The translations under genes and the position numbers were made by a program. A stretch of 13,422 nucleotides of DNA. It comes from Actinomycetota bacterium. GTDB taxonomy: Bacteria > Actinomycetota > Humimicrobiia > Humimicrobiales > Humimicrobiaceae. The notes beneath the pieces are model-generated. The model saw only the letters and a program-made list of their open reading frames with translations. It did not search any database and was not told the DNA's origin. Position 1 is the first letter of the stretch. The number at the start of each line of letters is the position of its first letter. Below, in pieces: positions 377 through 13,346 of this stretch. The DNA lies in assembly GCA_016927635.1 (NCBI GenBank), contig JAFGMJ010000060.1, forward strand, positions 1-13,422, in the 5' to 3' direction.

Positions 377-496
377 ATGGAGCAGAAAACATATAATAAT
401 ATTGCATTTTTTATTTCTAAGGGGAAATCCTTTGGAAGTTCAGCTCTATCTGTCATCATTATCGTGGTCATCCTATCAGTGTGCCTGGTGCTGTAA
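377..496 (+). CDS. Branched-chain amino acid leader peptide (attenuator)
   Basis: This is a 39-codon ORF from ATG 377 to TAA 494-496. Its C-terminal end reads SVIIIVVILSVCLVL: eleven of the final 14 codons specify Ile, Val or Leu. Such clustering is the hallmark of the leader peptides of ilv operons in enterobacteria and actinobacteria, where ribosome stalling at scarce charged tRNA controls a downstream terminator. The ORF ends about 60 bases before the terminator hairpin and 135 bases before ilvD. Its last codons are themselves part of the antiterminator. The start is the weak point: there is no clear Shine-Dalgarno sequence before ATG 377, and no ATG, GTG or TTG lies in frame between it and the Ile/Val/Leu run. 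The N-terminal half may therefore be mis-assigned. Confidence 0.72.
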   Translation: MEQKTYNNIAFFISKGKSFGSSALSVIIIVVILSVCLVL

Positions 497-589
497 TGAA
501 GTAGGATGATCGGTTTTAATCTTTAATTTATAAAAAAATCATCCATACTTTTAAACAGCAGCAGGTTTACCTGAGCTGCTGTTTTTTTT
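467..589 (+). promoter_or_regulatory. Transcription attenuator with competing hairpins upstream of ilvD
   Basis: Three mutually exclusive pairings can be drawn. Protector: 467-475, inside the Ile/Val codon run, pairs with 502-510 (nine pairs including one G-U). Antiterminator: 484-494 pairs with 555-565 (ten pairs and one G-G mismatch), continued inward by 501-503 with 546-548 and by 504-510 with 538-544. Terminator: 553-565 pairs with 570-584. The antiterminator uses bases 555-565, the whole 5' arm core of the terminator. A ribosome stalled on the Ile/Val/Leu codons would leave 484-510 free to form the antiterminator. A ribosome reaching the stop at 494-496 would cover it and let the terminator form. 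The pairings are seen directly; the mechanism is inferred from known ilv attenuators. Confidence 0.8.
553..589 (+). terminator. Attenuator terminator before ilvD
   Basis: Bases 553-562 pair perfectly with 575-584, including a CAGCAGC/GCTGCTG core. Bases 563-565 pair with 570-572, with GA bulged at 573-574 and a four-base loop. Eight T residues follow at 582-589. It lies between the leader ORF and ilvD with no gene end nearby, so it serves as a conditional terminator. Confidence 0.88.
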
Positions 590-2411: not shown

Positions 2412-4106
2412 ATGGGAAAGATAACAGGGGCGCAAATGCTGATAAAATGTTTAAAGGAATCCGGAGTGGAGGTCATTTTCGGTTTTCCCGGCGGTGTGGT
2501 CATACCCATATACGACGCTCTTTACGACAGTGATATAAGACACATACTTGTAAGGCATGAACAGGGCGCTGCGCATGCAGCAGACGGCTATGCAAGGTCA
2601 ACCGGGAAAACAGGCGTATGCCTTGCTACATCCGGGCCAGGCGCTACAAACCTTATAACAGGCATTGCAAATGCCTATATGGATTCTATACCGGTTGTCG
2701 CAATTACCGGCCAGGTTGCCACGCATGTAATCGGAACAGATGCTTTCCAGGAAGCAGATATTACTGGCATAACAGCACCTATAACAAAACATAATTATCT
2801 GATAAAGGACATTAAAGAGCTGCCTGCAGTAATTAAAGAAGCTTTTTATATTGCATCTACCGGAAGACCCGGGCCTGTACTTATTGATATTCCTGTTGAT
2901 ATCTCCAAAGGTTATATTGATGAAAATTTAAAAGCTGATATTGACGTTGAGGGATATAAACCTACTTATAAAGGTAATCCCAGACAAATAATACAGGCTG
3001 TTAAAAAAATACAGGAAAGTAAAAAACCTGTAATATTTGCCGGAGGAGGGGTGACTTCTTCAGAGGCGGCAGAGGTACTGACTGAATTTGCAGAAATTGC
3101 CCACATACCTGTTATAACATCACTGACAGGTAAGGGGGTTTTTCCAGATACAAGCGATCTTTCCCTGGGCATGGCAGGCATGCATGGTACAAAATACGCA
3201 AATCTTGCCTTTACCCAAACCGACCTTATAATTGCAGTCGGCGTAAGGTTTGACGACAGGGTCACCGGAAAGCTTTCCGAGTTTGCAAAAAATGCAGTGG
3301 TGATTCATATAGACATAGACCCTGCAGAAATCGGCAAAAATGTCAGAGTTGATGTGCCCATAGTCGGAGATGCAAAAAATGTACTTTCAGATCTTAAGAC
3401 AAAATATCTTGAGATAGTTAAAGGAAAGATATCGCCTGAACAGGCAGCATGGCTGGAAAATATTGCCAGCCTTAAAAGTAAATGCGCTCTCAGATATGAC
3501 AGGGACTCTGATGCGTTAAAGCCGGCTTATATAATTGAGAAAATATATGAACTTACAAAAGGCGAAGCAATAATATGCACTGAGGTAGGCCAGCACCAGA
3601 TGTGGACTGCACAGTATTATAAATTTACCAGGCCGAGAACACTTATATCATCAGGCGGGCTTGGAACTATGGGGTTCGGTTTTCCTGCAGCAATAGGCGC
3701 AAAAGTCGGAAATCCGGATAAAACAGTAATAGACATAGCTGGTGACGGCAGCATACAGATGAACGTACAGGAATTTGCCACCGCAGTATCCAATAAAATT
3801 CCTGTAAAAATAATGGTCATAAACAACGGGTATCTTGGCATGGTAAGACAGTGGCAGGAATTTTTCTGGAATAAAAGGTATTCTCATACAAATATTGCTG
3901 ACAGCGTTGATTTTGTAAAGCTTGTTGAAGCATATGGAGGAACAGGGTTCAGGGTAAAAGAAAAAGATGAAGTTGAAAGTACCATAAAAAAAGCACTGGA
4001 GATAGACAATCTTGTGCTGGTTGATTTCTGGGTGGAAAGGGAAGAGAATGTCTATCCGATGGTGCCTTCAGGTTCAGCGATTGACCAGATGATTGAATGT
4101 GATTAA
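2412..4106 (+). CDS. ilvB: Acetohydroxyacid synthase large (catalytic) subunit
   Basis: This TPP-, Mg- and FAD-dependent enzyme condenses two pyruvates to 2-acetolactate, or pyruvate with 2-oxobutyrate to 2-aceto-2-hydroxybutyrate: the first common step of Val/Leu and Ile synthesis. It has 564 residues, normal for the family. The N-terminal PYR domain carries the catalytic Glu50 in RHEQGAAHAADGYAR. A central FAD-contact region includes GVRFDDRVTGKL. The C-terminal PP domain has the TPP motif GDGS at 444-447 ending with NN at 471-472 (metal ligands Asp445 and probably Asn472), followed by GMVRQWQEFFW, a segment typical of AHAS rather than of other pyruvate-family TPP enzymes. ATG 2412 follows a GGAG sequence at good spacing. 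The adjacent ilvN encodes its regulatory partner. Confidence 0.97.
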   Translation: MGKITGAQMLIKCLKESGVEVIFGFPGGVVIPIYDALYDSDIRHILVRHEQGAAHAADGYARSTGKTGVCLATSGPGATNLITGIANAYMDSIPVVAITGQVATHVIGTDAFQEADITGITAPITKHNYLIKDIKELPAVIKEAFYIASTGRPGPVLIDIPVDISKGYIDENLKADIDVEGYKPTYKGNPRQIIQAVKKIQESKKPVIFAGGGVTSSEAAEVLTEFAEIAHIPVITSLTGKGVFPDTSDLSLGMAGMHGTKYANLAFTQTDLIIAVGVRFDDRVTGKLSEFAKNAVVIHIDIDPAEIGKNVRVDVPIVGDAKNVLSDLKTKYLEIVKGKISPEQAAWLENIASLKSKCALRYDRDSDALKPAYIIEKIYELTKGEAIICTEVGQHQMWTAQYYKFTRPRTLISSGGLGTMGFGFPAAIGAKVGNPDKTVIDIAGDGSIQMNVQEFATAVSNKIPVKIMVINNGYLGMVRQWQEFFWNKRYSHTNIADSVDFVKLVEAYGGTGFRVKEKDEVESTIKKALEIDNLVLVDFWVEREENVYPMVPSGSAIDQMIECD

Positions 4107-4141: not shown

Positions 4142-4630
4142 ATGAGCAGTAGTCATATAATTTCTGTACTAGTTGAAAATAAATCAGGCGTACTGGCAAA
4201 AATTTCAGGGCTTTTTTCAAGAAGGGGTTTTAATATAGAAAGTCTTGCAGTAGGTACAACAGATGATGAAAAAATATCCAGGATAACTCTTGTGGTAAAA
4301 GCTGAAAATCACAGCATTGAACAGATAGTAAAGCAGCTTCATAAGCTTATCAATGTACTTAAAATACAGGAACTTGACCCTTCCAATATTGTCGAAAGAG
4401 AACTTGTGCTTATAAAAGTCAACTCAGACAATAATACAAGGGCGGAAATACTTGAGATAGCAAGCATATTCAGGGCAAGCGTTGTTGATGTCGCAAAAAA
4501 ATCGCTTGTCATTGAAATCACCGGCAACAGCAAAAAAGTCGAAGGAATAGAAGACCTTTTAAAGCCCTACGGGATAATCGAGCTTGTAAGAACAGGCAAG
4601 ATCGCTATCAGCCGTGGATCTAAAAAATAG
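4142..4630 (+). CDS. ilvN: Acetohydroxyacid synthase small (regulatory) subunit
   Basis: IlvN activates the catalytic subunit and makes it sensitive to valine feedback. The 162 residues match the usual length. An N-terminal ACT domain (about residues 4-77) begins HIISVLVENKSGVLAKISGLFSRRGFNIESL, with the Gly-Val-Leu turn that lines the effector site in this family. The C-terminal domain (about 80-160) contains RELVLIKV and the ending LVRTGKIAISRG, both typical. It lies 35 bases after ilvB, and AAGGTGG at 4131-4137 supports ATG 4142. It is sometimes named ilvH; the choice of letter has no functional meaning here. Confidence 0.96.
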   Translation: MSSSHIISVLVENKSGVLAKISGLFSRRGFNIESLAVGTTDDEKISRITLVVKAENHSIEQIVKQLHKLINVLKIQELDPSNIVERELVLIKVNSDNNTRAEILEIASIFRASVVDVAKKSLVIEITGNSKKVEGIEDLLKPYGIIELVRTGKIAISRGSKK

Positions 4631-4742: not shown

Positions 4743-5906
4743 ATGAGAAAAAACTATGTAATGACACCGGGACCAGTACCTATCTCAAATGAGGTACTTA
4801 TAGAGCACGGAAAGCCACTTATGCATCACAGGTCTCCCGAATTCTCTAAAATATTTGCTGAGCTTACTGAAAAGCTTAAAAAATTCATGCAGACCGAAAA
4901 TGATGTTTTTGTACTTACCGCATCCGGCACAGGAGCTATGGAGGCTGCTGTGACAAATACTTTTTGTACTGGTGATAAGGTGCTTGTGGCAAGTGTAGGT
5001 AATTTTGGAGAAAGATTTAAAAAAATGAGCAAGACATTCGGGCTTGAGGTCATAGCTCTTGACTATGAATGGGGCAAACCTGTTAATCCTGAAGATATAA
5101 AGAAAGCGCTGGACCAGGACCCGGATATAAAAGGCGTAATGATACAGCACAGCGAGACTTCCACAGGAGTTTTGAATGACATTGAGGCGGTAGGTAAAAT
5201 AGTAAAGGATTATCCGGCTGTTCTTATTGTAGACGCTATAAGCGGCATAGGCGCATCGGAATTAAAAGTCGATGAATGGAACCTTGATATTGTGTGCGGA
5301 GGTTCACAAAAAGCTATAAGCGCGCCTTCCGGAGCAGCATTTATCAGTGTTAGCGCCAAGGCATGGCAAATGATAGAAAAATCAGATATACCAAGATTTT
5401 ACTTCTGCTTGCTGGCAGCAAAAAAATCAGCTGATAAAAATCCTCCCCAGACGCCATGGACACCGGGCATATCCATAATAGTGGCAATGAATAAAGCGCT
5501 TGATATGTTTTTTGAAGAGGGCAGGGAAAAAGTTTATGAGAGGCACAGAGTAAATGCTCTTGCAGTGCAGTCTGCATGCGAAAAGCTTGGCCTTGAAATG
5601 CTTGTAACAGATCCTGAGAGCAGGGGTGTTTCTGTCACATCAATAAAGGTCCCTGAAAATATTGACGGCAAGCTCCTTACAAAAACCATGAGGGTCAAAT
5701 ATGGCGTCACTATCGCAGGAGGCCAGGGTAAACTGACGGGGTTGATATTCAGGATAGGCCATCTTGGCTATGTTGGAATATTTGATGTCATAACGGCTCT
5801 TTCCGCACTTGAATTTGCCCTTAAAGAACAGGGATGGAAGTTTGAGCTGGGGATATCTGTAACAGAAGCTCAAAAAGTATTTTTTGAAAATAACTATATG
5901 GAATAA
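4743..5906 (+). CDS. Class V PLP aminotransferase, alanine/serine-glyoxylate type; candidate phosphoserine aminotransferase
   Basis: This is a fold-type I PLP enzyme of aminotransferase class V, 387 residues. Family marks are the N-terminal MTPGPVPIS, SGTGAMEAAV in the cofactor phosphate region, VDAISGIGA with the pyridine-contact Asp, and GGSQKAISAP with the Schiff-base Lys190. The closest group by eye is alanine-glyoxylate / serine-glyoxylate / purine-catabolism aminotransferases. Because it sits 70 bases before serA and no serC is present, it probably converts 3-phosphohydroxypyruvate to phosphoserine, or otherwise serves serine metabolism. That is inference from context. The start ATG 4743 is preferred over an in-frame TTG at 4698 because AAAGG lies at 4731-4735 and the family begins with this Met-Arg-Lys segment. 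The 112 bases after ilvN show no clear terminator or promoter. Confidence 0.88.
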   Translation: MRKNYVMTPGPVPISNEVLIEHGKPLMHHRSPEFSKIFAELTEKLKKFMQTENDVFVLTASGTGAMEAAVTNTFCTGDKVLVASVGNFGERFKKMSKTFGLEVIALDYEWGKPVNPEDIKKALDQDPDIKGVMIQHSETSTGVLNDIEAVGKIVKDYPAVLIVDAISGIGASELKVDEWNLDIVCGGSQKAISAPSGAAFISVSAKAWQMIEKSDIPRFYFCLLAAKKSADKNPPQTPWTPGISIIVAMNKALDMFFEEGREKVYERHRVNALAVQSACEKLGLEMLVTDPESRGVSVTSIKVPENIDGKLLTKTMRVKYGVTIAGGQGKLTGLIFRIGHLGYVGIFDVITALSALEFALKEQGWKFELGISVTEAQKVFFENNYME

Positions 5907-5976: not shown

Positions 5977-7563
5977 ATGAAAAAAAAGATAATAGTCACT
6001 GACGGAATCTCTGAAAATGCAAAAGAAATGCTGCAAGAAAAATATACAGTTGATTTAAAAAAAGGCATTTCTCCGGAAGAGCTGAAAAAAGAAATAAAAA
6101 ATTACAATGCTATTATAATAAGAAGCGCCACTAAAATGACTCAAGATATTATAGAGTCTGCAGATAACCTTGAGGTCATAGGAAGAGCAGGGGTAGGAGT
6201 TGACAATGTCGATGTAAAGGCAGCCACTAAAAAAGGTGTAGTGGTTGTAAATGCACCAGGCAGCAATAGCGTCTCGGTAGCTGAGCATGCCATTGGCCTT
6301 ATGCTTTCCCTTGCCCGGAAAATCCCTGAAGCAGATTTTTCGACCAAATCCGGCAAATGGGAAAAATCCAAATTTAAAGGTATGGAGATAGAAGGTAAGA
6401 CAATAGGTATAGTAGGATTCGGGAAAATAGGTTATCTGGTAGCTAAAAAAGCTTCAGGGCTTGGTATGAAAGTCATAGCTTACGATCCTTTTACGGCGGA
6501 CGAAAAATTTTCGTCTCTGGGTATTGAAAGAGCTGCCAGGCTTGATGATCTTTACAATGTAGCTGATTTCATTACAATACATCTTCCTAAAAACAAGGAT
6601 ACTCTGGGGCTTTTTAATAAAAATGAGTTCAGTAAAATGAAAAAAGGTGTGGTAATAATAAACTCTGCCCGTGGCGGGATAATAATTGAAAAAGATCTTG
6701 CAGAAGCTATAAAAGAAGGCATCGTTGGCGGCGCTGCCATTGATGTCTTTGAAAGCGAGCCGTGCCAGGAATCTCCGTTGTTTGCTGTCGAGCGTGTCGT
6801 GTGCACACCGCATCTCGGAGCTTCCACGGATGAGGCACAGGACAGAGCCGGTACAATGATAGCAGAGCAGGTCGATTCGGTGCTCTCGGGCAAGCCTGCT
6901 ACATTTGCAGTTAACTTTCCTGCAGCAAGCTCTGAATTAATGGAGGCCATATCACCGTTTTTTGAACTCTGCGATAATATGGGCAGCCTTTTTTCCGGCA
7001 TGTTTGAGGGGAGCCTCAACAGCCTGGAAATAGGTTACTATGGAAAAATAGCAGAACAGGACACTAAAATACTTACAAGCATGATTCTTGTTAAAATCCT
7101 CGGAAAATATTCCTCAGAAAATACAAACATTGTCAATGCCGCTGTTATAGCTGAGGAAAGCGGACTCAGCATAAAAGAGGTAAAAAGCAGCCAGACCCAG
7201 GATTATGTAAACCTCATAACACTTTCAGGCAAAGGAAGGCAAAGTGAGCTTTTAATATCCGGTACTGTTACAGGAATCAAGAATAAGCCCAGATTTATTT
7301 CTATTGATAAGTTTGCAATAGATATGGTTCCTTCAAAATATATGGTATTTATAAGGTATGAGGACGTACCTGGCCAGATAGGCAAAATAGGCACAGCTTT
7401 TGGTAAACTTAATATAAATATTGCCGCAATGCATGTAGGCAGGAAAAAAGTCAGCGGTGAAGCTGTCATGGGATTAAATATTGATACAGAGCTTTCACAG
7501 GAAGATTTAAGCCAGTTCAAGAAAATAACGGGATTTGAAAATATAAAAGTTGTAAATTTATAA
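5977..7563 (+). CDS. serA: D-3-phosphoglycerate dehydrogenase, long form with ACT domain
   Basis: SerA oxidises 3-phosphoglycerate to 3-phosphohydroxypyruvate with NAD, the entry to the phosphorylated serine pathway. The 528 residues match the long (Bacillus/Mycobacterium) type. The order is N-terminal substrate domain; NAD domain with GFGKIG at 147-152; catalytic triad Arg232 (in SARGG), Glu261 (in ESEP) and His279 (in TPHLGAST); an intervening ASB-like domain around 295-450; and a C-terminal ACT domain from about residue 456 (MVFIRYEDVPGQIGKIG). The ACT domain suggests serine feedback. The start ATG 5977 has TGGAGGA at 5961-5967. A TATAAT at 5935-5940 lacks a well-spaced -35, so I do not call a promoter. 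Its place between ilv and leu genes puts it under the same attenuator unless an internal promoter acts. Confidence 0.95.
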   Translation: MKKKIIVTDGISENAKEMLQEKYTVDLKKGISPEELKKEIKNYNAIIIRSATKMTQDIIESADNLEVIGRAGVGVDNVDVKAATKKGVVVVNAPGSNSVSVAEHAIGLMLSLARKIPEADFSTKSGKWEKSKFKGMEIEGKTIGIVGFGKIGYLVAKKASGLGMKVIAYDPFTADEKFSSLGIERAARLDDLYNVADFITIHLPKNKDTLGLFNKNEFSKMKKGVVIINSARGGIIIEKDLAEAIKEGIVGGAAIDVFESEPCQESPLFAVERVVCTPHLGASTDEAQDRAGTMIAEQVDSVLSGKPATFAVNFPAASSELMEAISPFFELCDNMGSLFSGMFEGSLNSLEIGYYGKIAEQDTKILTSMILVKILGKYSSENTNIVNAAVIAEESGLSIKEVKSSQTQDYVNLITLSGKGRQSELLISGTVTGIKNKPRFISIDKFAIDMVPSKYMVFIRYEDVPGQIGKIGTAFGKLNINIAAMHVGRKKVSGEAVMGLNIDTELSQEDLSQFKKITGFENIKVVNL

Positions 7564-7585: not shown

Positions 7586-9103
7586 ATGGCAAAAAAGATA
7601 AATCTTTTTGATACCACATTGCGTGACGGAGAGCAGGCTCCAGGCATACATCTCAATGTCAGGGAAAAGCTTGAAATAGCAGAACAGCTTGACAGGCTCA
7701 ATGTAGATATAATCGAGGCAGGTTTTCCAATATCTTCAAAAAGTGATTTCAATTCTGTTGTAGAGATATCAAAAAAGATAAAAAACCGCAGGATAGCTGC
7801 GCTTGCACGGGCAGTACCCATAGATATTGATACTGCAGGCGAGGCGCTTCAGCATGCTGCAAATCCTGTTATTCATACCTTTATATCATCTTCAGATATA
7901 CATCTTGAATACCAGTTCAAAAAAACAAGGGATGAAGCAATAGTCCTTGCTGCTGATGCTGTAAAAAGGGCAAGAAAATATACTGACTGGGTGGAATTTT
8001 CTGCAATGGATGCCACCCGCAGCGACAGGGATTTTCTGTGCAGGATGTATGAGGCAGCAATTAAAAGCGGAGCCAGTGTTTTAAATGTTCCCGATACTGT
8101 AGGATATGCACTTCCAGAAGAGTATGCAAGACTTATAGATTATATAATTGCCAATACAGCCGGGATAGAAAATGTCATTATAAGCGTACACTGCCATAAT
8201 GATCTTGGGCTTGCCGTTGCCAATTCAATACTTGCTGTTCAGCACGGTGCCGGCCAGATAGAGGTTTCAGTCAATGGAATAGGCGAGAGAGCCGGAAACG
8301 CTGCCTTTGAAGAAATTGCCATGGTACTGGATACAAGGAAAAATGAGCTTGATTTTTATACTGATATAAATCTTAAGGAAATAATGAAGACCAGCATGCT
8401 TGTAAGGCATTTGACCGGCTATACAGTGGCGCCTAATAAGCCAATTGTCGGCAAATATGTTTTTACGCATGAGGCGGGAATACACCAGGATGGCATGCTT
8501 AAAAACAGGACAACTTATGAAATAATGAAACCTGAAGATATCGGTTCACAACCGTCAAAACTTATGCTTGGTAAACATTCAGGCAGGCATGCTTTTGTGA
8601 AAAGAATAGAGGAACTTGGATTCAGGCTAAGTGAAGATGAAATAGAAAAAGCTTTTGAAGGTTTCAAGGACCTGGCCGAGAAAAAAGGCGAAATAAGTGA
8701 TGATGATCTTAAAGCAATAATAAACAATGAAATCAGGGATATTGAGGAATACTTTAAATTAAAATATTACCAGGTGATAAACGGCACGAGCATAAAGTCA
8801 ACTGCTACAGTCGGGATTGAGGTCAATGGCAATCTTATAGAAAGCGCTTCTTATGGTGACGGGCCGGTTGATGCATCTTTTAAAGCCATAGATAATATAA
8901 CCGGGCTGGAAGCCAGTCTTTCGGACTACAGCATTGAAGCAGTTTCAGAAGGCGGGGATGCAATAGGCTCCGTAAAAGTGATACTTAACAGTGGTCAGGT
9001 CAGGGTTATGGGTAGCGGTATCAGCACAGATGTAATAGAAGCAAGCATAAAATCTTATCTTGATGCTTTGAACAGGATTATGCTTTACAGAAAGTCAGAA
9101 TAA
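7586..9103 (+). CDS. leuA: 2-Isopropylmalate synthase
   Basis: LeuA condenses acetyl-CoA with 2-oxoisovalerate, the committed step to leucine. It has 505 residues. The catalytic TIM barrel starts with FDTTLRDGEQAPG (Asp9 metal ligand, Arg13) and holds the metal motif HCHND (His202 and His204) followed by VNGIGERAGN. Then come a linker with the HEAGIHQDG segment and a C-terminal LeuA dimer/allosteric domain from about residue 370, expected to bind leucine. GERAGN and the EQAPG signature separate it from the related CimA further on. It begins 22 bases after serA, and AAAGAGG at 7571-7577 supports ATG 7586. Homocitrate synthase is a less likely alternative given the leuCD neighbours and full-length LeuA architecture. 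Confidence 0.95.
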   Translation: MAKKINLFDTTLRDGEQAPGIHLNVREKLEIAEQLDRLNVDIIEAGFPISSKSDFNSVVEISKKIKNRRIAALARAVPIDIDTAGEALQHAANPVIHTFISSSDIHLEYQFKKTRDEAIVLAADAVKRARKYTDWVEFSAMDATRSDRDFLCRMYEAAIKSGASVLNVPDTVGYALPEEYARLIDYIIANTAGIENVIISVHCHNDLGLAVANSILAVQHGAGQIEVSVNGIGERAGNAAFEEIAMVLDTRKNELDFYTDINLKEIMKTSMLVRHLTGYTVAPNKPIVGKYVFTHEAGIHQDGMLKNRTTYEIMKPEDIGSQPSKLMLGKHSGRHAFVKRIEELGFRLSEDEIEKAFEGFKDLAEKKGEISDDDLKAIINNEIRDIEEYFKLKYYQVINGTSIKSTATVGIEVNGNLIESASYGDGPVDASFKAIDNITGLEASLSDYSIEAVSEGGDAIGSVKVILNSGQVRVMGSGISTDVIEASIKSYLDALNRIMLYRKSE

Positions 9104-9124: not shown

Positions 9125-10402
9125 TTGGCGGCAAACAATACACCTCAGACAATGGCACAAAAAATACTGGCATATCATTGCGGCAGGGACTATGTAAATA
9201 CAGGCGAGCTGATAAATGCAAGTCTTGATCTTGTTCTGGGAAATGATATTACCATGCCCCTTGCTATTGAAGAATTTAAAAAAATCGGGGTTGGCAGGGT
9301 ATTTGATGATAAAAAAATTGCAATTGTTCCTGATCACTTTACGCCGAATAAGGATATAAAATCCGCCCAGCAGTGTAAATTTGTAAGAAATTTTGCTAAA
9401 AACCAGGATATAAAAAATTATTTTGAAATAGGACAAATGGGAATTGAACATGCACTGCTGCCTGAAAAGGGCCTTGTGTTGCCAGGGGATCTTGTAATCG
9501 GGGCTGATTCCCATACATGCACTTATGGTGCACTTGGCGCTGCCTCAACTGGCGTTGGCAGCACAGATGTTGCTGTGGCCATGGCAACAGGCAGTGCGTG
9601 GTTTATGGTTCCGGAATCAATTAAGTTTGAATATTCTGGTTCTTTAAAGCCCTGGGTAACCGGCAAAGACCTTATTCTTTATACAATTGGCCTTATAGGT
9701 GTTGATGGAGCTCTATATATGTCAATGGAATTTACAGGTACTGTAATTAAAAACCTGTCTATGGATTCAAGGTTTACGATGTGCAATATGGCAATAGAAG
9801 CAGGCGGAAAATTCGGCATCATGGAAGTTGACAGTAAAACAGAAGAATTTGTAAAGCCAAGGGCTTCCAGGCCCTTTAAGATATTTAGAAGTGATAACGG
9901 TGCAAATTACTATAAACATTATGAAATAGACTGCAGTAAAATAGAACTTCAGGTTGCTAAGCCCCATCTGCCTTCAAATGCTGCAAATGCAAAGGACCTC
10001 AGCAATATCAGTATAGATCAGGCAGTCATTGGCTCATGCACAAATGGTAGAATAGAAGACTTAAGAATAGCAGCAGAGATATTTGCCGGCAGGAAGGTGG
10101 ATAATACTGTAAGGGCAATAATAATACCAGCAACGCAGAATATTTATCTGGAAGCTCTTGAAAAAGGCTATATAAAGACCTTTGTAGAATCTGGCTGTGT
10201 TGTCAGTACGCCTACATGCGGCCCGTGCCTGGGCGGGCACATGGGCATACTTGCAGAAGGTGAAAGAGCAGTTTCAACTACAAACAGGAATTTTGTAGGC
10301 AGGATGGGTCATCCTAAAAGTGAAGTTTATTTAAGCGGTCCAGCTGTAGCTGCAGCAAGTGCCATAATGGGCAGGATAGCCGTACCGGAGGAGGTTCTAT
10401 AA
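9125..10402 (+). CDS. leuC: 3-Isopropylmalate dehydratase large subunit (archaeal/clostridial type)
   Basis: This is the [4Fe-4S] catalytic subunit of isopropylmalate isomerase, which interconverts 2- and 3-isopropylmalate and, with the right small subunit, citramalate and 3-methylmalate. It has 425 residues, the shorter type found in archaea, clostridia and thermophiles rather than the roughly 466-residue enterobacterial type. Cluster cysteines are visible at 305 (GSCTNGR), 365 and 368 ([11 protein letters not shown]). [14 protein letters not shown] and [11 protein letters not shown] are further family motifs. The start is TTG 9125, supported by AGGAGA at 9111-9116; the next in-frame ATG, at residue 10, has no better site. 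It abuts leuD with no spacer, which fits a tightly coupled heterodimer. A homoaconitase role is possible for this family but less likely here. Confidence 0.94.
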
Positions 10403-10903
10403 ATGATAATAAGAGATAAAGTGATAAAGTATGGAAATAATGTTGATACTGATGTGATAATCCCGGCAAGATATTTAAATACCACTGATGAGGCCGAACT
10501 TGCTTCCCACTGTTTTGAGGACCTGGATCCGGATTTCAGTAAAAAACTTAAAGATCGTAAAATAATAGTAGCCGGCGATAATTTTGGCTGTGGTTCATCA
10601 AGGGAGCACGCGCCTATTTCAATCAAGGCAAGCGGGGTAAAACTGATAATTGCAAAAACTTTTGCAAGGATTTTTTTCAGGAATGCAATAAACATAGGAC
10701 TTCCGGTAATTCCAGATGCTATAGCTGCCTCAAATATAAATGATGGCGATGAGCTTGAAGTAGATCTTGACAGTGGATTTATAAAAAATATAACAAGTAA
10801 AAAACAGTTTAAAATAAACCCTGTACCGGAATTTATCCAGGGAATCATCTCAAGCGGCGGATATATTAATTATACAAAAACAAAGCTTAAGACAAATAAG
10901 TAA
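10403..10903 (+). CDS. leuD: 3-Isopropylmalate dehydratase small subunit
   Basis: LeuD is the swivelling small subunit that closes the active site of the LeuC partner and sets substrate choice. Its 166 residues match the short type that pairs with 420-residue LeuC. It shows [14 protein letters not shown], with the substrate-recognition loop Tyr-Leu-Asn-Thr at 24-27, and the conserved GCGSSREHA at 62-70. Its ATG directly follows the leuC TAA, and its ribosome site (GGAGGAGG, about 10387-10394) lies inside the leuC end, so translation is probably coupled. Because cimA follows, this isomerase likely handles both isopropylmalate (leucine) and citramalate (isoleucine). Confidence 0.95.
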
Positions 10904-10920
10904 GACAGGAAAAATACATC

Positions 10921-12498
10921 ATGGATAATAAAATATTTATATTTGACACGACTTTGAGAGACGGCTCACAGGGCGCTGATGTCTCTTTTTCAGTAAAAGA
11001 TAAAATACTTCTTATAGAAAAATTCAATGAAATAGGTATTGACTATATTGAGGTTGGTTTTCCTGCCTCAAACCCTAAAGATGAGGAACTCTTTGAGGTG
11101 CTCAAAAAAAGAAAGTTCAATTATTCAAAAATAGTAGCTTTTGGAAGGACAAAATATAAAAACACACGAGCTGAAAATGATGAGAACATGCTGAGCCTGC
11201 TGGAGACTGAAGCCGGTGTTATCTGCATATTCGGTAAAAGCTCAACACTTCATGTTGAAAAGGTGCTGGAGACAACTCTTGAAAATAACCTTGAAATGAT
11301 TTTTGATTCTGTCTCATATCTTAAAAAAAACTGCCCGGAAGTAATTTATGATGCTGAACATTTTTTTGACGGATATAAACTTGATCCTGATTATGCAATA
11401 AAAACGCTTTTTGCCGCCAGGGATGCCAAAGCAGATTTTATTGTCCTTTGCGATACGAACGGAGGCTGCCTGCCACAGGAAACACTTGAAATAGTCTCAA
11501 AAGTTGCGGAAAAAATAAATGTGCCGCTTGGCATACACTGCCATAATGACAGCGGTTGTGCTGTTGCCAATTCCATACTTCTTGTTGAAAATCTTGATGC
11601 TGTAAGAATGGTACAGGGCACAGTAAACGGTTATGGCGAACGATGCGGCAATGCTGATCTCTGCCAGATCATTCCAAGCCTTGAGCTGAAGCTTGGTAAA
11701 AAATGCCTGCCGGAAAATAATTTAAACCAGATAACCAGCCTTGCCAGGTTTGTGGGCGAGATAGCAAACCTATCAGTGCCTTACAGCCAGCCATTTGTGG
11801 GCCGCAATGCATTTACGCATAAAGCAGGCATGCACGTGCATGGAGTAAGCAAAGTGCCGGAAGCTTTCGAGCATATAAGTCCTGATATGGTTGGCAATAC
11901 ACGTGATATACTCATATCCGAGCTTTCAGGCAAGAAGTCTATAATAGTCAAAGCCAGGGAATTTGGTGTAGACCTTGCTTCAGACCCGGAAAGCGTAAAT
12001 AAAATCCTTAATATGATACAGAATCTTGAATATAAGGGGTACCAGTTTGAAGCAGCAAATGGAAGTTTTGAGCTTATGGTAAAAGATACCATAGGAATAA
12101 AAAAACAGTTTTTTAATCTTGAAAGCTTCAGGGTGCTCAATGAAAAAAGAATGGACGGGCAAATGATATCTGAAGCGACTGTTAAAATAAATATTAAAAA
12201 CAAAAGAATAATAGAAACAGCTGAAGGCGATGGACCCGTGCACGCCCTTGACTGTGCCATCAGGAAAGCGCTTGAAGGATTCTACCCGGGACTTTCAAAA
12301 ATTAAACTGACCGATTTTAAAGTCAGGGTGCTTGATGAAAAACAGGGCACCGGCGCGGTTGTCAGGGTACTTATTGAATCCACTGACGGGACAAGCAGCT
12401 GGGGGACTATAGGCGTTTCTGAAAATATAATAGAAGCAAGCTGGAAGGCTCTTGAAGATGGCATTGTATATGGACTGATGCATCTGGAATGCAGGTAA
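10921..12498 (+). CDS. cimA: (R)-Citramalate synthase
   Basis: CimA condenses pyruvate with acetyl-CoA to citramalate, which LeuCD and LeuB convert to 2-oxobutyrate, bypassing threonine dehydratase in isoleucine synthesis. It has 525 residues. The DRE-TIM barrel opens with FDTTLRDGSQGADVSFSVKD (Asp9, Arg13). GSQGADVSFS distinguishes the CimA group from LeuA's GEQAPG. The metal-binding HCHND has His206 and His208, followed by VNGYGERCGN. KAGMHVHG and a C-terminal LeuA-type regulatory domain (about 380-520) complete it, suggesting isoleucine feedback. The gene starts 17 bases after leuD; only a weak ACAGGA at 10905-10910 precedes ATG 10921. A second LeuA or homocitrate synthase is a less likely reading. 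Confidence 0.93.
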   Translation: MDNKIFIFDTTLRDGSQGADVSFSVKDKILLIEKFNEIGIDYIEVGFPASNPKDEELFEVLKKRKFNYSKIVAFGRTKYKNTRAENDENMLSLLETEAGVICIFGKSSTLHVEKVLETTLENNLEMIFDSVSYLKKNCPEVIYDAEHFFDGYKLDPDYAIKTLFAARDAKADFIVLCDTNGGCLPQETLEIVSKVAEKINVPLGIHCHNDSGCAVANSILLVENLDAVRMVQGTVNGYGERCGNADLCQIIPSLELKLGKKCLPENNLNQITSLARFVGEIANLSVPYSQPFVGRNAFTHKAGMHVHGVSKVPEAFEHISPDMVGNTRDILISELSGKKSIIVKAREFGVDLASDPESVNKILNMIQNLEYKGYQFEAANGSFELMVKDTIGIKKQFFNLESFRVLNEKRMDGQMISEATVKINIKNKRIIETAEGDGPVHALDCAIRKALEGFYPGLSKIKLTDFKVRVLDEKQGTGAVVRVLIESTDGTSSWGTIGVSENIIEASWKALEDGIVYGLMHLECR

Positions 12499-12527: not shown

Positions 12528-13346
12528 ATGAATGAAATAAATAAATTTAAATCTTCCGCTGAGCCTGTAAAAAAAGAGTTTTTAAACGGCATAACCTCCT
12601 TAATTGAAAAATTTCTAAAGGATTACAGGGATTGTAAAATAACAGAGAAAGATTTTATTGCCGAAATAAAAAATCTTTATTTTGAAGATATTGAATATGC
12701 AAAAATCGATCATCATCGTGCGCTCAGGAGAGGATTTCCGGAAGTTGTATACGGAAAAAATAAAACGCCCCCGCAGATACTGGAAATCTCACAAAAAATA
12801 TTAAAATATTCCGATATACTTCTTGTGACAAGAACCGATTTTTCAGTTTATGAATTGCTCAAAAAGCATATCAAAGGTATTGTATTTGATAAAGCGGCAA
12901 ACCTGATTTATAAACCTCCTAAAACCCCTGAAGAAAAACTCATTGAGGGCATAACAGTATTGTGCGCAGGGACAACAGATATACCTGTGGCAGAAGAAGC
13001 AGCAGTGACTGCTTATCTTATGGGAAATAAAGTAAAAAAAATATATGATGTCGGCGTGGCCGGCATTCACAGGCTTTTGAGCTACAGGGATTGCCTTCTT
13101 AATTCCAATATTATTATTGCTGTAGCAGGAATGGAGGGGGCCCTGCCTGGCGTTGTAAGCTCTCTTGTTTCATGCCCTGTTATAGGAGTTCCTACGAGTA
13201 TCGGTTATGGCGCGAGCTTTTCCGGGCTTTCGCCTTTACTTACGATGCTGAATTCCTGCAGTCCTGGCATACTTGTGACAAATATAGACAACGGTTTCGG
13301 GGCAGGATACTCAGCAGGACTTATAAATAAAAAAATAGTCAAATAA
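12528..13346 (+). CDS. larB: Nickel-pincer cofactor biosynthesis protein LarB
   Basis: LarB carboxylates and hydrolyses nicotinic acid adenine dinucleotide to give pyridinium-3,5-biscarboxylate mononucleotide, the first step to the nickel-pincer nucleotide of lactate racemase and related LarA enzymes. It has 272 residues. The N-terminal part has the family signature DHHRALRRGFPEVVYG (about residues 62-77). The C-terminal part is PurE-like, with CAGTTDIPVAEEAAVTAYLMG, YDVGVAGIHRLL, AGMEGALPGVV, PTSIGYGASF and NIDNGFGAGY. Cys244 in LNSCSPG is the residue I expect to be catalytic from knowledge of the family. ATG 12528 is the first possible start (stop codon just upstream in frame), but no Shine-Dalgarno sequence is visible in the AT-rich 29-base gap after cimA. 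larC and larE, its usual partners, are not in the window. Older annotations call it an AIR carboxylase-like protein. Confidence 0.92.
   Translation: MNEINKFKSSAEPVKKEFLNGITSLIEKFLKDYRDCKITEKDFIAEIKNLYFEDIEYAKIDHHRALRRGFPEVVYGKNKTPPQILEISQKILKYSDILLVTRTDFSVYELLKKHIKGIVFDKAANLIYKPPKTPEEKLIEGITVLCAGTTDIPVAEEAAVTAYLMGNKVKKIYDVGVAGIHRLLSYRDCLLNSNIIIAVAGMEGALPGVVSSLVSCPVIGVPTSIGYGASFSGLSPLLTMLNSCSPGILVTNIDNGFGAGYSAGLINKKIVK

Follow-up and report, generated by a model that had tools for sequence, protein, structure and literature searches.

The window, that is, the whole stretch of 13,422 nucleotides analysed here, is one complete contig (G000:C118) of a draft genome of 1.6 Mb that is 77% complete. 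It carries a series of genes on the plus strand that begins with ilvD (632–2290; TIGR00110, 789.7 bits), which has a TTG start and a Shine-Dalgarno sequence, AGGAGG, at 622–627. This first gene is followed by ilvB and ilvN, encoding the large and small subunits of acetolactate synthase (2412–4106, TIGR00118, and 4142–4630, TIGR00119), by a class-V aminotransferase gene (4743–5906; PF00266 when scanned from 4746, with no NCBIfam model above cut-off), and by serA, encoding phosphoglycerate dehydrogenase (5977–7563; TIGR01327). Further downstream are leuA for 2-isopropylmalate synthase (7586–9103; TIGR00973), leuC and leuD for the large and small subunits of 3-isopropylmalate dehydratase (9125–10402, TIGR02083, and 10403–10903, TIGR02087 above cut-off with TIGR02084 just below), cimA for citramalate synthase (10921–12498; TIGR00977), and a last gene at 12528–13346, for which an AIR-carboxylase domain (PF00731) is the computed match and whose product we take to be a LarB-like protein. 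The usual context of LarB is lactate racemase, and here the LarB-like gene closes an operon outside that context. An earlier note on this DNA had listed serA, an aminotransferase, cimA and larB; all of these are found, larB as a LarB-like gene, yet the list was incomplete in that leuA, leuC and leuD are also present. The gene ilvC is not among the named genes of the window. The spacing of the genes from ilvD to larB suggests one transcript, and the position of the aminotransferase gene and serA between ilvN and leuA implies that serine or glycine metabolism may come under branched-chain amino acid (BCAA) control.

Upstream of ilvD lies a short open reading frame (ORF) of 39 codons and a TAA stop (377–496, plus strand) that reads MEQKTYNNIAFFISKGKSFGSSALSVIIIVVILSVCLVL*. 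It ends in an Ile/Val/Leu run, as the earlier note had described, with 13 Ile, Leu or Val codons among the last 22. The run proper comprises codons 26–39 (452–493, plus strand), marked out by folding with a ribosome at successive positions and by family composition and codon bias, and within it codons 27–32 (I I I V V I; 455–472, plus strand) are the predicted sensing codons. The leader peptide of the window has no Pfam match. A second frame starts from a TTG at 432 with AAGGGG upstream, and it contains no Ile/Leu/Val run. A candidate extended −10 promoter, TATGCTATCATA, is located at 323–334 on the plus strand; the start site would be near 341, giving the leader a 5′ untranslated region of about 35 nt. 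Of 27 family upstreams, 24 have the pattern TGNTA(T/A)NAT in the 110 nt that precede the leader ATG, 29–62 nt away from it, compared with 113 of 1350 shuffled sequences. The Shine-Dalgarno pairing of the leader is −3.6 kcal/mol in the window versus −12.2 kcal/mol for ilvD, and the family means are −2.0 (weak) versus −11.3 kcal/mol. Further upstream, at 215–242, there is an AT/GC hairpin with T runs on both sides (listed on the minus strand). It probably serves as a bidirectional terminator downstream of the preceding gene, which ends at 177; the genome seems to use intrinsic terminators of the canonical kind.

The RNA that spans the end of the ORF and the spacer before ilvD can form three competing helices, all on the plus strand. 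The anti-antiterminator, P1 (466–511), pairs 466–476 with 501–511 over 11 base pairs; the protector at 467–475/502–510 that had been described earlier does exist but is slightly longer than was stated. The antiterminator, P2 (484–565), consists of an upper stem (498–510 with 538–551) and a lower stem (484–494 with 555–565) in which the last leader codons and the stop pair with the 5′ arm of the terminator, so that folding agrees with the earlier description of an antiterminator joining 484–510 with 538–565 and capturing that arm. The intrinsic terminator, P3 (553–589; −16.3 kcal/mol), has a stem at 553–584 and a T run at 582–589. It had been called perfect and followed by eight T; its 13 base pairs are interrupted by a two-base bulge at 573–574, and three of the eight T (582–584) lie inside the stem while five follow it. 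The regions 340–600 and 484–600 both fold better than shuffled sequences (z −3.8 in each case), with 1 of 200 shuffles as good in each. Folding of 340–600 without a ribosome, which the earlier note had proposed as a check, did not yield the protector together with the terminator; at equilibrium, the free RNA folds as the antiterminator P2. The bare helices are nearly equal in energy (−30.3 kcal/mol for P2 versus −30.1 kcal/mol for P1 and P3 together), so that, with no ribosome present, the OFF state would be a matter of which segments are synthesised first.

The family set used for comparison consists of 35 genomes in 15 genera (g1 to g15), all 35 of which contain ilvD, and the window belongs to genus g1 (G000, G001 and G002). 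The region upstream of ilvD is readable in 31 of the 35, the window included, with three of these 31 cut within the leader; the four left out have no sequence before ilvD (G008, G026 and G031) or 96 bases of it (G004). The phylum of the host is judged to be Actinomycetota because of the distribution of WhiB, which is found in 14 of 61 relatives, one of them in the window's class, and in a single one of 14 controls, Corynebacterium. Eleven WhiB copies occur in a 9.2-Mb genome of the same phylum, and WhiB is absent from all 35 family genomes. The low-GC anaerobe of the earlier note, in a Firmicute-like reading, thus gives way to a low-GC member of Actinomycetota.

An equivalent leader is present in all 31 readable upstreams, each with 12–16 Ile, Leu or Val codons among the last 22 before the stop. 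The frame was chosen by its Ile/Leu/Val score and therefore the same choice was repeated on shuffled upstreams, among which 56 of 930 offered some frame with at least 12 such codons; on the antisense strand of the real upstreams, 7 of 31 reach 12 and none of 31 reaches 14. Relatives that kept ilvD and lacked either the hydrophobic run or the alternative pairing were what the earlier note had named as evidence against its reading; the run is found in 31 of 31 and the competing hairpin in 30 of 31. The leaders whose start is on the contig (28 in number) are 34–55 codons long. In their last 20 codons Ile, Leu and Val make up 68%, whereas Phe (0.7%), Ala (1.1%) and Met (0.4%) are nearly missing; the N-terminal part of the same leaders is polar, contains 8.9% Phe and 13% Lys, and differs widely among genera. 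The near-absence of Phe, Ala and Met from the run, set beside 8.9% Phe N-terminally, indicates that codon identity has been kept and not hydrophobicity. Codon choice differs as well: in 24 genomes the leader run versus ilvD uses CTA for 32% versus 5% and CTC for 18% versus 5% of Leu, GTC for 57% versus 12% of Val and ATT for 70% versus 36% of Ile, a bias of which part could stem from P1 pairing. The leader has a pN/pS of 0.76 when pooled over same-genus pairs, with values above 1 in some pairs of g9 and g6. Low Phe, Ala and Met, the codon bias and this pN/pS together form the pattern expected if codon identity matters and the peptide does not.

These properties bear on the proposal that the ORF encodes a small membrane protein, whose N terminus is basic and which has a single hydrophobic helix, and that the terminator just ends the transcript of this gene. 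A Lys-rich polar N-terminal part followed by a hydrophobic C-terminal stretch is what such a protein would look like. However, a membrane helix is expected to include Phe, Ala and Met, and the last 20 codons of the leaders do not fit this composition, although Phe is used freely in the N-terminal part. The enrichment of CTA, CTC and GTC, the pooled pN/pS, the wide variation of the N-terminal part among genera, and the fact that the competing helices are built from the end of the ORF also run against a membrane protein, which is considered very improbable.

Conservation of the RNA was assessed by two scores. For P1, the strongest pairing that the final 20 codons can make with the 35 bases following the stop, at any location, was compared with dinucleotide shuffles; the folding of the first 80 bases past the stop was scored in the same way, and genus means were combined. 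Over 14 genera the combined z is −8.6 for P1-type pairing and −6.2 for the post-stop fold. No signal over shuffles was obtained for P1 in g2 and g14 or for the post-stop fold in g10 and g12, and the signal is weak (z between 0 and −1) for P1 in g15 and for the post-stop fold in g3 and g13. Of the 31 readable genomes, 30, from 13 genera, have a P2-type hairpin close to the stop, in competition with the protector; none was found in G011. In this same genome (L006) P1 is an unbroken hairpin of about 20 base pairs across the stop, far longer than elsewhere, with a z of −7. In g2 the spacer between leader and ilvD is purine-rich and dominated by A, and is 368 bases long in one species (L012, G003) and 252 in the other (L013, G017).

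Covariation in P2 was examined in an alignment of 25 of the 30 genomes that have this hairpin. Five rows (G000, G001, G002, G018 and G009) were left out since their stop lies later, those of g1 being also misaligned at the 3′ arm; G006, G012 and G021 were trimmed shorter, and G006 and G032 were kept in spite of a misaligned 3′ arm. P2 is paired in 83% of cells in these 25 relatives, against 67.5% in shuffles and 33–45% when slid, and its covariation is 0.439, against at most 0.077 when slid, with 42 double-change cells and 0 of 500 shuffles as good; such cell-based measures count sequences and not events, and kinship can raise them. Two of the five measures are not above shuffles, namely the count of pairs that show a double change (7 versus 6.2 in shuffles; 152 of 500) and that of pair types (17 versus 16; 194 of 500). 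An unguided consensus fold of the same 25-row alignment returned the P2 core, with six pairs of which three show double changes. The short P1 stem has no covariation signal of its own because its 5′ arm consists of conserved codons. An alignment of the leader for covariation and for conservation of the run had been suggested beforehand; it bears out the run in all 31 genomes, and P2 covaries on some of five measures.

It could also be supposed that the RNA is a riboswitch or a protein-binding leader and the ORF incidental, as a structured leader with a conserved hairpin would allow. A precedent comes from Streptomyces, where one study reported no effect of substituting possible ilv control codons (PMC1262725). 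The Ile/Leu/Val codon run in all 31 upstreams is not what an incidental ORF would provide, however, and apart from the codons and the GG and TCC of the helices there are few invariant columns. Among 4227 models of Rfam 15, a set that may not include ilvB-OMG and ilvB-II, none matches the window at its gathering score. The reading as a riboswitch or protein-binding leader is accordingly given very little credence. A sub-threshold match to the Rfam L20_leader at 94–253 (27 versus 58.7 bits) overlaps the coding end and the terminator of the upstream region and is probably due to chance.

The effect of translation on the switch was modelled by leaving out the bases covered by the ribosome, taken to extend 12 bases downstream of the A-site codon's first base, and folding the remainder. 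In the window the probability of the terminator is 0 with the A site at codons 22–32, 0.70 at Leu33, 0.71 at Ser34, and 0.98–1.00 from Val35 to the stop; a footprint two bases shorter or longer moves the transition by about one codon. Codons 27–32 satisfy both conditions, a free antiterminator and a covered P1, because the ribosome reaches the 5′ arm of P1 only from codon 27. With stalls at Leu24 and Val26 the antiterminator is free at equilibrium, but the 5′ arm of P1 is not covered. The outcome of a stall at Leu33 depends on the assumed footprint, and stalls at Leu37, Val38 and Leu39 lead to the terminator. The window would thus, in this model, sense mainly Ile and Val, with Leu ambiguous. 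It had been put forward that the final Leu-Val-Leu codons and the stop are themselves antiterminator bases and that the position of stalling would be read very precisely from them; they do form the base of the antiterminator, but stalls at codons 37–39 give the terminator.

Elsewhere in the family the equilibrium picture varies. In G001 the terminator has a probability of 1.00 with the ribosome upstream, about 0.45 at three Ile codons and the next Leu, and then 1.00 again, and in G002 it is never under 0.99 at any modelled position; the switch at equilibrium is partial in the former and absent in the latter because the lower stem of P2 is shorter in both. In all 30 genomes with P2, an A site three codons short of the stop lets this hairpin form and an A site at the stop abolishes it; P2 was sought next to the stop, however, and the fit is therefore a consistency check that is partly built in. 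When the ribosome is placed further upstream, P1 prevails at equilibrium in g3, g5, g12 and g13 and in some members of g4, g6 and g9, whereas P2 beats P1 at every upstream position in the remaining genomes, among them those of the window's genus.

The locus is best explained as a classical ribosome-mediated transcription attenuator of the trp/his/ilv type at the head of the operon, a reading drawn from the sequence and the folding model to which we assign a probability of about 0.82. The earlier note had arrived at such an attenuator, and its claim is supported by the ORF, the mutually exclusive helices, the run in 31 of 31 genomes and the competing hairpin in 30 of 31. The ORF, the helices and their conservation, the codon bias and the fit of the ribosome support it: the window contains an upstream ORF rich in Ile, Leu and Val, an intrinsic terminator, an antiterminator countered by a protector, and an appropriate geometry of stall and stop, of which the terminator and the geometry are less general in the relatives. 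From these features we infer leader translation, stalling, termination near 589, the order in which the helices form and how the switch responds to amino acids. Transcription would begin about 35 nt upstream of the leader ORF. When tRNAs for both Ile and Val are charged, the ribosome would reach the stop at 494 and cover the 5′ arm of the antiterminator, allowing the terminator at 553–584 to form and RNA polymerase to stop near 589. Under a shortage of Ile or Val, the ribosome would stall at about codons 27–32 and cover the 5′ arm of the anti-antiterminator; the antiterminator (484–510 with 538–565) would then form, its lower stem taking the 5′ arm of the terminator, and the ilvD-ilvBN-aminotransferase-serA-leuACD-cimA operon would be transcribed. 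If there were no translation, the anti-antiterminator would be made first and termination would be favoured.

The output of the switch appears less uniform than its sensor. A separate strong terminator beyond P2 (−15 to −16 kcal/mol with a T run) is found in 3 of 31 genomes, all of g1 (−16.3, −15.0 and −15.8 kcal/mol in G000, G001 and G002), and no comparable separate hairpin was found in the other 28 readable family members. The fold beyond a ribosome at the stop has z values of −2.2, −1.6 and −2.8 in these three genomes; outside g1 no third structure is evident in the spacer between leader and ilvD (z −1.3 to +2.1), with the exception of G003 (−2.05). In G005, G006, G009, G012 and G030 there are hairpins of −10 to −13 kcal/mol with a T-rich stretch behind them; they coincide with P1 or P2 themselves and may terminate. 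In G012, P2 is followed by seven T, which its congeners G021 and G030 do not have. P1 may also be a terminator in g9 and g13, where U-rich tracts follow it, but P2 could not then serve as its antiterminator, the 3′ arm of P2 being made after that point. An IlvD tree that covers 30 of the 35 family genomes joins g1 first to g3 and next to g10. The terminator is missing from G018, the only readable member of g3, and in G011 (g10) a T run is preceded by a weak AU-rich hairpin, so that the simplest reading is a gain of the terminator in g1.

Other outputs are suggested by the 3′ arm of P2, which mostly carries UCC and is a better partner of the ilvD Shine-Dalgarno sequence than most windows of the same spacer. 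The mean rank over 13 genera is 0.28 (one-sided p = 0.001), a test that is helped by the UCC imposed by P2 and in which the 3′ arm was placed manually for G006. Ranks are 0.00–0.01 in g2, 0.03 in g4, 0.01 in g5 and 0.02 in g6 (4/6), and the pairing is also strong in G002 of g1. In g2 the same pairing is present in both species with stops 368 and 252 bases before ilvD, the two species being close kin. From the sequences, sequestration of the ilvD Shine-Dalgarno is plausible in g2, g4, g5 and g6. Rho-dependent termination is possible too, since 31 of the 35 family genomes, G000 among them, have a rho domain (over cut-off in 30).

It may accordingly be asked whether the leader is real and the ancestral output of the family was something other than a separate terminator, the g1 terminator having been added later and control elsewhere depending on Rho, on weak termination at P1 or P2, or on blocked ilvD translation. 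The leader and P2 in 13 genera with a separate strong terminator in one, the nesting of g1 by g3 in the IlvD tree with a terminator-less G018, the rho domains, and the pairing of the P2 3′ arm with the Shine-Dalgarno in g2, g4, g5 and g6 all point this way; yet the pairing is not seen in g3, g13, g14 and g15 (ranks 0.39–0.86), matched and mismatched genera differ at only p = 0.048, and the P1 or P2 hairpins of the five genomes named above may terminate. Such a history is credited with somewhat less than even odds; it concerns the family and does not contradict the attenuator reading of the window. A related and slightly more doubtful proposal is that of one family-wide ribosome sensor, made of the Ile/Leu/Val leader with P1 and P2, whose output differs by genus, being the terminator in g1 and sequestration of the ilvD Shine-Dalgarno in several others. 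As part of this tentative proposal, sequestration would follow a 1-2-3-4 chain, UCCU / AGGA / UCCU / AGGAGG, with the 3′ arm of P2 on the ilvD Shine-Dalgarno. If true, leader-peptide attenuators would swap expression platforms as riboswitches do, inside one bacterial family.

The enterobacterial trp, his, ilvGMEDA and leu attenuators follow a 1:2, 2:3 and 3:4 logic in which segment 1 contains the control codons or is preceded by them. The attenuator of the window shares this logic and differs from them in building the base of its antiterminator from the final codons and the stop. For Actinomycetota, control of ilv by leader peptides has already been published (PMC1262725, PMC10272879, PMC11857589). 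In the first of these papers, leaders with Ile, Val and Leu codons are predicted before ilvB in Corynebacterium, Mycobacterium and Streptomyces, with the mode of ilv regulation left unclear, and leaders without terminators are noted for cys genes (PMC1262725); these resemble the present family in their actinobacterial Ile/Val/Leu runs and, as in most of the family, in terminator-less leaders, while the first genes differ. The ilvBNC attenuator of Corynebacterium glutamicum (IlvL; ilvB-II motif) is described as having mutational support (PMC11857589, PMC10272879). By description, it shares with the window the phylum, as inferred here, a short Ile/Val/Leu leader, an anti-antiterminator, an antiterminator and a terminator, whereas its leader has 15 codons, begins one base from the transcription start and precedes ilvB, and that of the window has 39 codons and precedes ilvD. 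Mutation-supported leader-peptide attenuation is also described for Rli60 of Listeria monocytogenes (PMC5864092) and for the ilvD attenuator of Staphylococcus aureus (PMC5794164). Like the window, these attenuators lie directly upstream of an ilv-leu operon headed by ilvD; they differ in that they belong to Firmicutes, have leaders of 13 and 26 codons and are combined with CodY (PMC5864092, PMC5794164). The Listeria element has a four-segment 2:3/3:4 design like that of the window, and in S. aureus the predicted antiterminator takes the poly-U. A search of full-text literature, made without the name of the family, returned nothing recognised on the ilv leader of this family. The switch of the window is ordinary in kind; the unusual aspect is that the sensor stays constant while the output appears to change inside one family.

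A T-box might have been expected at this position, as had been remarked earlier, and the contrast is real. No T-box (RF00230) was found in the window or in G000 with a model that matches 35 of 61 genomes at an E-value of 0.001, and in G057, of the same phylum, a T-box sits directly before ilvD (L129, G057:C60:3069-3303, 132 bits, with ilvD from 3354). The ilv-leu T-box of Firmicutes and that of G057 have the same position in the operon, where G000 is without one. In four of the six family T-box loci that were fetched (L128, L130, L131 and L133) the T-box is followed by an ORF that is presumably trpB-like. The locus offers a BCAA attenuator with all its parts, from a low-GC and uncultured branch of Actinomycetota; with their shared sensor and seemingly changing output, the 31 readable leaders form a natural series for how a leader-peptide switch changes its output, and the phylum offers a view of how attenuation and T-boxes replace each other before the same operon.

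Second, distant ilvD-like genes (38–51% identity) are present in G005, G008, G012, G021, G024 and G026. Five upstreams of such genes, judged by eye, have no leader of this kind, and in G005 the second gene is in pieces, with a single in-frame TGA.
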